From positions 1 through 34,308 of IMG/VR virus record IMGVR_UViG_3300020215_000108: a stretch of 34,308 nt of DNA, one strand, 5' to 3'. The notes beneath the pieces were generated by a model, which saw only the letters and a program-made list of their open reading frames with translations, did not search any database and was not told the DNA's origin. This document shows, piece by piece, positions 10,974 through 13,298 of the stretch. Made by a program: the position numbers and the translations under genes. Source of the DNA: a virus. Numbering within the stretch: position 1 is the first letter of the stretch; each line of letters starts with the position of its first letter.

Positions 10974-11177
10974 TTAGTTGGGCCTCTTGGTTTCTTGGGC
11001 CACTAGATAGTCGTGGAGTCTTTGGATTTTATTGACTCCAGGATCTTTGATTTCGCCTCTGGCTACCTTGTTGAGCCATTCGTAGTCGAGGCGTGTTTCT
11101 TTACAGATGGAGCGCCAATGACCCTTGTGCGACTGCAAGAGGGTTATGGTGCGCGTAAGCATGGTTTGAGTGGTCAT
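10974..11177 (-). CDS. Cro-like helix-turn-helix regulator
   Basis: 67 residues. LLQSHKGHWRSICKETRLDY, EWLNKVARGEIKDPGVNKIQ and RLHDYLV form a short helix-turn-helix domain without a dimerisation extension. It is divergent from the repressor gene across three operators, exactly as cro in lambda, and is the first gene of the leftward early operon. ATG 11177 lacks a visible ribosome binding site; ATG 11162 is an alternative. It probably binds the AGTA-N6-TACT sites, though I cannot show this. Confidence 0.65.
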   Translation of the reverse strand: MTTQTMLTRTITLLQSHKGHWRSICKETRLDYEWLNKVARGEIKDPGVNKIQRLHDYLVAQETKRPN

Positions 11178-11185
11178 GCGTGAAG

Positions 11186-11246
11186 TCTAGTAAATATTTA
11201 CTAGATGCGCAAGTAATTATTTACTTGCCCTCAGTAGTATCCTACT
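11186..11246. promoter_or_regulatory. Three operator sites, OR-like
   Basis: Three 14-bp inverted repeats of the form AGTA-N6-TACT: 11189-11202 (within a 20-bp perfect palindrome, 11186-11205), 11212-11225 (within an 18-bp perfect palindrome, 11210-11227), and 11233-11246. Centres are 23 and 21 bases apart, about two helical turns, so dimers could bind side by side. The site lies between divergent regulator genes. Both early promoters must be here, but I cannot fix their -35/-10 elements. Confidence 0.85.
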
Positions 11247-11269: not shown

Positions 11270-11680
11270 GTGAATAATAAACAGCCTGAAGTAAAAGAGA
11301 TCCTTGCTGCTAACCTCAAGGATTTAATGGAAGCTAACACCTATAACCAAGCGACTCTTTCGGCCCGCGCTAAAAGCCGTTATGGTTTGAAAATTTCTCA
11401 GAAAACTATTAGCAATATCTTAAAACAAGAGCATTCGGTGAGCATAAAGCACATTGAGACTCTAGCTACCGTTTTTGATTTAACTCCTGGTGAATTAATT
11501 TCTGAGCGGCTTGAGGTAAAAAAACAAAATGCCGCCGCCTCAAAACCGGACCGCCAAGAACTTTACGAATTAATTGATAAGCTCCCAGCGGCTCAGGAAG
11601 TTCTGCAATGGGTTGATTTTTTTCTTCGGGCCATTCTCACCTCCCCTATGGTTAAAGCGGCAGCCCGGTTGAAGAAATAA
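11270..11680 (+). CDS. Short CI-like XRE repressor
   Basis: 136 residues, GTG start with AGGGG seven bases upstream. The helix-turn-helix spans about 10-68: NLKDLMEANTYNQATLSARA, KISQKTISNILKQEHSVSIK and IETLATVFDLTPGEL. The last 50 residues are a helical, probably dimerising region. There is no S24/LexA-type peptidase domain, so RecA-stimulated self-cleavage is not expected; an antirepressor or other trigger would be needed for induction. Its position next to three operators and opposite the Cro-like gene makes it the likely lysogeny repressor. Confidence 0.75.
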   Translation: MNNKQPEVKEILAANLKDLMEANTYNQATLSARAKSRYGLKISQKTISNILKQEHSVSIKHIETLATVFDLTPGELISERLEVKKQNAAASKPDRQELYELIDKLPAAQEVLQWVDFFLRAILTSPMVKAAARLKK

Positions 11681-11834
11681 TATCAATCGCTATCTGATGC
11701 CAAAGATTTTCAAATTTTTCGCGAATTGCTTGGTCGCGTAGAACTGATATTTCTTTGTGGATTTTTATTAAAGTACCAACATCAGTACCTTTTCTTTCCC
11801 TGAAATCGTTCAGGGTAACAACCTTTTCATCCAT
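11652..11834 (-). CDS. Small hypothetical protein in immunity region
   Basis: 60 residues from ATG 11834 with GGAGG upstream; an earlier start at 11870 is less likely. MDEKVVTLNDFRERKGTDVG, then ISVLRDQAIREKFENLWHQI. It is helical and mostly polar, and its 3' end overlaps the convergent repressor gene by 29 bases. It is the second gene of the - strand unit headed by the 384-residue HTH protein. Not recognised; a partner of that protein is conceivable. Confidence 0.55.
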   Translation of the reverse strand: MDEKVVTLNDFRERKGTDVGTLIKIHKEISVLRDQAIREKFENLWHQIAIDIISSTGLPL

Positions 11835-11871
11835 GAGAGAGCCTCCATGGGCAACTATCTCCCGCCTCACT

Positions 11872-11987: not shown

Positions 11988-13142
11988 TTATTCCGCACTC
12001 TTGTCTTCCAATTTGTAAGCGCTCAGAGCAATCTGAGCGAATGAAGGCGGTAACTGTTTCTGTTCAACCTTGTTGTTTATGTATTTAGTGAATTTACCAT
12101 CTCCTATGTAGTTCTCTCTCATCCACCGGCGGAATTCAGGAAGCGCGGCTTCCGGGTAGCACCATGCTGGTTGCGGGTTCGATTCCGCTTGCGGAAAGTA
12201 CTCAGGATAATTGTGCTCCCATTTCGTCCTGGCTCCGAACTTCTGATCAAAGCCGCTCTTGGTCCAGTGTTGACCCCAGCACAAGCCTACGCTCAAGTCA
12301 GGAACAAACGACTCATCAATATGCAGCCCTGCTTGACCGAGCGTGACTATCATGTCGGCGATTTCCTTGAAAACGCTGAAGTAACCGACCGGTACGGAGT
12401 TGTAAGTTAAAGAGACGCGGTCATGGAATTGCCTCCAGACCTGGGGGACCTTGTTGGCAGGGTCATATCCGACTTGCGCATAAATGAAGTCATGCAACGC
12501 CCTACCAGCCAAGAGGCGGAAATTCTTCTTCGCTTCTTCTCGGACATTTGGAGCATCGAATGCGTAGTATTCAAGAACTGCAACGCTAACCACGTCGGGA
12601 TAAGCGTGGAATACCGACGTGCGCTGATCAATGGGAATGAAAGGGTGTTCTACAACAATGCCTCGGGAAGCCAAAATCTCTTTTACCTTGACCGTCAAAG
12701 GCAGCGAGGCTGTGTCCCAGTCCGTACTCATTTCGCTAATGCGTGAGCTGTCTATGCCACAGAGTTTGGCAAGACCACGGCCGTTTAAGAATGCGGTGCC
12801 ATCTGAAAGCACCCCCATCCCTATGCCGTCTATTTCCTTTTGGCGATCTATTTGAAGATCGAAGCTAAGCTGCGTATCAGGGGTGCGCGGATTTTCAGTG
12901 GTTTGAGGCACTAAAACCTTGATTTCATTAGGAATAACCCCGCGCGGCTGATTTGGTACTAAGAAATCGTCCCCTGTAAGCTCAACCCCATTTTCTAGCG
13001 CAGCCTTAAGCAGTCTGGTCTGCCATTTAGCAGGAATAATTCCTGTTTTAAACCAATAACTTACAGTGCTTTGGCCAATCCCAAGGGCCTTTGCAAGGGC
13101 TGATTGACCACCAAATTTTTCAATAATTTTATGTGCGTTCAT
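11988..13142 (-). CDS. HTH protein with large unknown C-terminal domain (candidate BstA-like or antirepressor)
   Basis: 384 residues. Residues 3-60 form a YdaS/Cro-type helix-turn-helix (KIIEKFGGQSALAKALGIGQ, then STVSYWFKTGIIPAKW). A linker of about 35 residues follows. Residues 105-165 (GVLSDGTAFLNGRGLAKLCG) recall the start of KilA-N/antirepressor domains. The C-terminal 200 residues are aromatic and acidic with many Trp and Tyr (VWRQFHDRVSLTYNSVPVGY; WEHNYPEYFPQ) and end in a basic helix. It lies between repressor and rightward promoter, the place of rexAB in lambda and bstA in BTP1. A phage-exclusion or antirepressor function is inferred. The palindromes at 13151-13189 suggest autoregulation. 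Confidence 0.6.
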   Translation of the reverse strand: MNAHKIIEKFGGQSALAKALGIGQSTVSYWFKTGIIPAKWQTRLLKAALENGVELTGDDFLVPNQPRGVIPNEIKVLVPQTTENPRTPDTQLSFDLQIDRQKEIDGIGMGVLSDGTAFLNGRGLAKLCGIDSSRISEMSTDWDTASLPLTVKVKEILASRGIVVEHPFIPIDQRTSVFHAYPDVVSVAVLEYYAFDAPNVREEAKKNFRLLAGRALHDFIYAQVGYDPANKVPQVWRQFHDRVSLTYNSVPVGYFSVFKEIADMIVTLGQAGLHIDESFVPDLSVGLCWGQHWTKSGFDQKFGARTKWEHNYPEYFPQAESNPQPAWCYPEAALPEFRRWMRENYIGDGKFTKYINNKVEQKQLPPSFAQIALSAYKLEDKSAE

Positions 13143-13150
13143 TTGTCACC

Positions 13151-13189
13151 TATCAAATATTTTGATAAGGCTACCAAATTTATTGGTAG
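13151..13189. promoter_or_regulatory. Two matching palindromes upstream of the HTH-fusion gene
   Basis: TATCAAATATTTTGATA (13151-13167) and TACCAAATTTATTGGTA (13172-13188, extended to 13171-13189) share the form TAYCAAATWTWTTGRTA, and both are perfect inverted repeats. Centres are 21 bases apart. They begin eight bases before ATG 13142 and are unlike the AGTA-N6-TACT sites. They are likely operators for the HTH-fusion protein or another regulator. Confidence 0.72.
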
Positions 13190-13251: not shown

Positions 13252-13298
13252 AGTAATCTTTTACTTGACATAGTTGTTACATGTAGTAATATTTTACT
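13252..13298 (+). promoter_or_regulatory. Strong early promoter with two operators (pL-like)
   Basis: TTGACA (13265-13270) and TAATAT (13287-13292) with a 16-base spacer form a near-consensus promoter. AGTA-N6-TACT sites at 13252-13265 and 13285-13298 touch the -35 and cover the -10. The first gene of the rightward operon starts at 13337. Repression by the same protein that binds 11186-11246 would silence both early operons, as CI does in lambda. Confidence 0.85.

Follow-up and report, generated by a model that had tools for sequence, protein, structure and literature searches.

The window, by which we mean the whole stretch of DNA analysed, comes from IMG/VR, where it forms a virus record of 34,308 bases. 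It carries a P22-like structural gene set together with an integrase and a recombination pair of the RecE/Bet type; no near-identical phage was found in the phage collection. On its minus strand, an open reading frame (11988..13142) encodes the protein of 384 residues announced in a preliminary description of this DNA, behind a probable ribosome-binding site, AGGTGA, read from the sequence (13146..13151, minus strand). The protein consists of three modules, all encoded on the minus strand: a Cro-like (YdaS / carph-isopro) helix-turn-helix (HTH) head at residues 1-60 (12963..13142), a linker at residues 61-96 (12855..12962) and a BstA part. The last comprises a KilA-N-like, putatively DNA-binding domain at residues 97-225 (12468..12854), placed by alignment with BTP1 BstA and by the structural model, and the BstA C-terminal domain at residues 226-377 (12012..12467), placed by PADLOC and PHROG coverage and by the model; the border between these two domains is approximate. 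In an AlphaFold model built on 52 aligned sequences (mean pLDDT 86), the head (pLDDT about 88) and the domains past residue 97 are confidently predicted, while residues 65-92 are disordered (pLDDT <50). The middle of the protein had been called antirepressor-like, which is a fair description of the confident domain that starts at residue 97, since its weak viral structural matches include antirepressors as well as KilA-N proteins. Both in the alignment and in a comparison of N-terminal sequences, the linker looks like the N-terminal tail that other BstA proteins natively possess.

Residues 89-377 were identified as BstA by PADLOC (E = 1e-114) and by PHROG 6287 (E = 3e-91); both the KilA-N-like and the C-terminal domain were matched and the conserved residues are kept in the alignment. 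This protein is 43% identical to BTP1 BstA over 263 residues (tblastn) and 59% identical to a Pseudomonas phage protein. In BTP1 BstA, residues 32-147 have been described as KilA-N-like (PMC8585504). The BstA proteins of BTP1, Klebsiella and E. coli, which are 38-48% identical, all protected against phages in experiments, and BstA is a prophage abortive-infection protein that blocks replication of incoming phage DNA (PMC8585504). The distance between these three homologues is about that between the window protein and BTP1 BstA. The homology makes it very probable that the window protein is a phage-defence protein of the BstA type. The earlier suggestion of a prophage defence protein is thus well supported, and on firmer ground than it was made, as the protein is itself a BstA homologue and does not merely occupy the position of one. 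No solved structure was matched by sequence to the BstA part. A fold search with the BstA model returned DdrC, a Deinococcus DNA-damage protein, only weakly (E = 0.09, TM about 0.3); this likeness could be due to chance and was set aside.

Among 289 genomes surveyed in the phylum of the Verrucomicrobium genome G001, two have BstA. Some bstA genes are interrupted: at L102/L103, in a genome (G180) that belongs to the same phylum as a Verrucomicrobium, the gene is apparently split into two overlapping frames, and in Salmonella phage S137 (L005) it contains a frameshift, so that the annotation lists two hypothetical proteins. The BstA match is likewise in two pieces in S135 and S107, two phages related to S137.

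The main lysogeny repressor, an HTH_26 protein of 136 residues (11270..11680, plus strand), is too short for a peptidase domain and is convergent with the fusion gene. The main operators, of the form AGTAA-N4-TTACT, occur twice on the repressor/Cro side (11189..11225; sites at 11189-11202 and 11212-11225) and twice on the pL side (13252..13298; sites at 13252-13265 and 13285-13298). A Cro-like gene (PHROG 9425) occupies 10974-11177, and a pL-like promoter-like site, TTGACA-16-TAATAT, lies between and within the pL-side operators at 13265-13292. The fusion gene does, as had been claimed, lie between repressor and pL, and this location of a prophage gene adjoining the repressor is shared with the bstA genes of BTP1, Klebsiella and E. 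coli, whose domains correspond to residues 89-377 or so (PMC8585504). The further claim that it takes the place of BstA or RexAB holds for this position, but not for orientation: the window gene converges on the repressor and has its own promoter region, unlike BTP1 bstA, which follows cI in the same orientation. The two lambda rexAB genes likewise come after cI on its strand. What the window protein has in common with RexAB is the location between repressor and pL and, as a prediction, the exclusion of other phages; no sequence relation between them was found here. Downstream of the fusion gene on the same strand, a small ORF of up to 72 codons (11652-11870, minus strand) overlaps the end of the repressor gene; it had no family match above the cut-off.

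The YdaS/Cro-type HTH reported in the preliminary description proved real. Pfam YdaS_toxin matches residues 5-40 (1.5e-7, above its cut-off) and NCBIfam carph-isopro matches residues 4-56 (4e-17); the head is also related by sequence to the Cro structures 3bd1 (Xfaso 1 Cro) and 1rzs (P22 Cro), and to the former by fold. Single-domain Cro/YdaS repressors have about 60-80 residues, whereas here the domain appears as the head of a predicted defence protein, and BTP1 BstA has neither this head nor an operator pair of its own. For comparison, viral contigs contributed about 240 BstA loci, gathered in three overlapping searches and including close strains, and about ten came from phages, plasmids and genomes, the genomes having been scanned with patterns. 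In none of the other approximately 250 loci listed, many of them redundant, does an HTH precede the BstA part in its reading frame. The BstA proteins of the first set other than that of the window start some 23-70 codons before a conserved Met that corresponds to residue 109 of the window protein. In a maximum-likelihood tree the window protein pairs with that of locus L019 (support 96/94), which has no head. Because no other fusion occurs among the loci listed and the sister is headless, the head was probably added to an already complete BstA. The fusion is known from one record, and may stem from an assembly error or a recent junction; its reading frame, on the other hand, is continuous. Further Cro-BstA fusions may exist in other genomes. 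A search for the HTH with single-peptide patterns yielded one weak relative, and an alignment of five diverse HTHs was too variable for use in scanning.

Two 17-bp sites of the form TAYCAA-N5-TTGRTA lie just upstream of the fusion gene, their centers 21 bp, or two helical turns, apart. The proximal operator (TATCAAATATTTTGATA, 13151..13167; arms TATCAAA-TAT-TTTGATA) is centered at -17 from the ATG and touches the ribosome-binding site AGGTGA; the distal one (TACCAAATTTATTGGTA, 13172..13188; arms TACCAA-ATTTA-TTGGTA) is centered at -38. They had been described as perfect 17-bp palindromes distinct from the main operators. The sites are real and their arms perfect, but the central 3-5 bases are non-symmetric; the difference from the AGTAA-N4-TTACT type is confirmed. 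By shuffling, the chance of two such like sites within 100 bp upstream is 5e-5. A pair of like sites is found in the whole record only here and at the main operators at 11189-11225, and the motif has no other exact match in the window. No consensus promoter for bstA was found.

The closest HTH relatives found, 65% identical to the head, are themselves the heads of proteins unrelated to BstA. One is a RhuM protein (L104/L125:2501-3793; Pfam RhuM 2e-65) that PADLOC classes as candidate defence PDC-S05, the other a P63C protein (L105/L126:2489-3622), and both genes lie near a phage repressor. Each has three TATCAA/TTGATA half-sites within 80 bp upstream (P = 0.0004 for the RhuM and 0.001 for the P63C fusion), and site spacings of 21 bp as in the window; in L126 the second of the sites spaced in this way is degenerate, reading TATCAA-N5-CTGAAT in the sequence. 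None of 17 more distant HTH relatives has these half-sites upstream; many of those have other palindromes. A scan of viral contigs for two full adjacent operator sites gave no match. The half-site thus appears to go with the HTH subtype, whatever the C-terminal domain, a rule supported by only two other close HTH fusions and the pattern expected if the head binds these half-sites. This pattern, together with the known behavior of Cro proteins, leads us to infer that the head likely autoregulates its own gene, from predicted cognate operators placed just upstream as in Cro, YdaS and carph-isopro repressors. Self-control by the protein, as initially suggested, is therefore well supported, with HTH and predicted operators recurring as a unit in other phages. 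As these 65%-identical relatives on unrelated proteins share both half-sites and 21-bp spacing, head and operators look like a portable self-repressing cassette.

In BTP1, self-immunity against its own BstA is provided by aba, a 63-bp element that spans -29 to +34 and is bounded by the two copies of a CCCGCC direct repeat. Changing one base in either copy is enough to destroy aba function, and no BstA responds to an aba other than its own (PMC8585504). A short direct repeat near the native start, its copies beginning 56 or 57 bp apart, proved to be a general feature of BstA genes. Exact repeats of at least 7 bases were counted in 57 non-redundant loci at all spacings from 20 to 119; 17 loci had them at 56 bp and 19 at 57 bp, while the other spacings averaged 0.56 loci. 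None was seen at 56 or 57 bp in the coding region just downstream in the same 57 loci. Measured from the conserved Met codon, most copies lie near -130 to -112 and -77 to -56. The repeat sequence varies by lineage, being CCCGCCA in enterics and CACCACC or AAGGAAATC in other groups, with GGTACCACC and more besides. The spacing search also recovered BTP1's own repeat, at -115/-59, which coincides with the experimentally required CCCGCC repeats. A secondary peak at 27 bp was traced mainly to a coding DG...DG motif near Met109 and was dropped.

Thirty-three further distinct loci, which together with the first 57 come from among L001-L091 and L135-L293, gave a supportive but less clean replication. 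Runs of at least 6 bases occurred at 56 bp in 7 loci and at 57 bp in 15 (mean 1.03), a clear peak, and runs of at least 7 at 56 bp in none and at 57 bp in 6 (mean 0.36), a modest one. It should be noted that this set leans to enterics and that one other spacing reaches 14 loci at the 6-base threshold, most likely the coding-related 27-bp spacing of the first set. A 56/57-bp repeat with lineage-specific sequence is put forward as a candidate general rule for aba. BstA and aba themselves are known; as far as we checked the literature the spacing rule is undescribed, and no later work on an aba rule or on BstA fusions was found in the open-licence literature.

A feature absent from the preliminary description is a candidate self-immunity element inside the window ORF. 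Two CCGCGC copies, at 12942-12947 (codons 66-67) and 12885-12890 (codons 85-86), are 57 bp apart and delimit 63 bp (12885..12947, minus strand), the same length as BTP1 aba. With the positional prior of the family, a repeat at this place has P = 0.008; being only 6 bp long, it is not significant alone (P = 0.14 and 0.034 in two tests without the prior). The sister L019 has a longer repeat with the same core, AAAAACCGCGCACCTCTAAA / AAAAAACGCGCACCCCTCAA. Like BTP1 aba, the window candidate is a direct-repeat element near the native BstA start, but where BTP1 aba extends across the start codon and uses CCCGCC, the window candidate lies wholly within the ORF, in the segment encoding the disordered linker and about 195 bp from the start codon. 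Since it is nevertheless found at the family position, the distance that is kept appears to be that from the BstA domain rather than from the start codon. We regard it as reasonably likely that this CCGCGC element is the aba of the window phage.

The best explanation for these data, and one we hold to be probable, is an autoregulated BstA that has gained a Cro-like head with its operators and retains an internal aba. The Cro-like repressor domain would have been acquired at the BstA N-terminus together with its own operators. In the lysogen, the head would bind both operators, covering its own promoter and start region and keeping Cro-BstA expression low, steady and self-limited, independently of the main repressor. 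An incoming phage that starts replication would be bound by the BstA part and its replication blocked. Upon induction of the prophage, replicating aba copies would suppress BstA and spare the phage's own replication.

Other readings of the head and its operators appear less probable. The operator pair might itself be the aba, if the Cro head had taken over self-recognition and operator copies on the replicating phage titrated BstA. The operators (-9 to -46) do sit where BTP1 aba does relative to the start codon (-29 to +34), and the internal repeat of the window is short; yet the family-wide repeat holds its distance to the conserved domain rather than to the start, is present there in both the window and the headless L019, and BTP1 aba works for a BstA that has no such head. 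We consider this unlikely, as we do the notion that the head is inert or purely structural, for example in dimerization, and that another phage protein binds the palindromes. The product of the Cro-like gene at 10974-11177 (PHROG 9425) would be at hand for such a role, but the main operator type, present twice on each side of the immunity region, fits the main repressor/Cro instead, and the same half-sites and spacing accompany the same HTH subtype on unrelated C-terminal domains in two other phages.

It had also been proposed that the protein is an antirepressor that inactivates the cleavage-less repressor (11270-11680). It would then act as a second lysogeny regulator through its KilA-N/antirepressor-like middle, with BstA exclusion lost or secondary. 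A repressor too short for a peptidase domain needs another inducer, the gene lies in the immunity region, and the best viral structural match (E = 1.7e-4, TM about 0.2) carries an antirepressor C-terminal protein annotation. Against this, BstA is matched over its full length with conserved domain residues, its characterized homologues are defence proteins, and neither Pfam nor PHROGs gave an antirepressor family match, the structural matches being weak only. This proposal is not supported and strikes us as very improbable, and we retain an autoregulated BstA with an internal aba.

The Cro-BstA fusion with its cognate predicted operators is a new variant, and suggests a simple route for phages to bring new defence genes under tight self-control. 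Taken jointly, we lean slightly towards the view that every BstA gene has two short direct repeats, spaced 56-57 bp and set at a constant distance from the conserved domain, that would form the self-immunity element, their sequence serving as a lineage-specific password and their spacing being universal, and that a Cro head with operators is a portable self-repressing cassette attached to defence genes, here adding a second DNA-recognition layer to BstA. A repeat of constant spacing and variable sequence provides a testable rule for how aba switches BstA off and why, as found earlier (PMC8585504), each BstA answers to its own aba. If the rule is true, swapped repeats should swap specificity and altered spacing should abolish function. 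In the Cro-BstA fusion the candidate aba is naturally set apart from the start codon, which makes it a case that can tell whether aba acts independently of gene expression.
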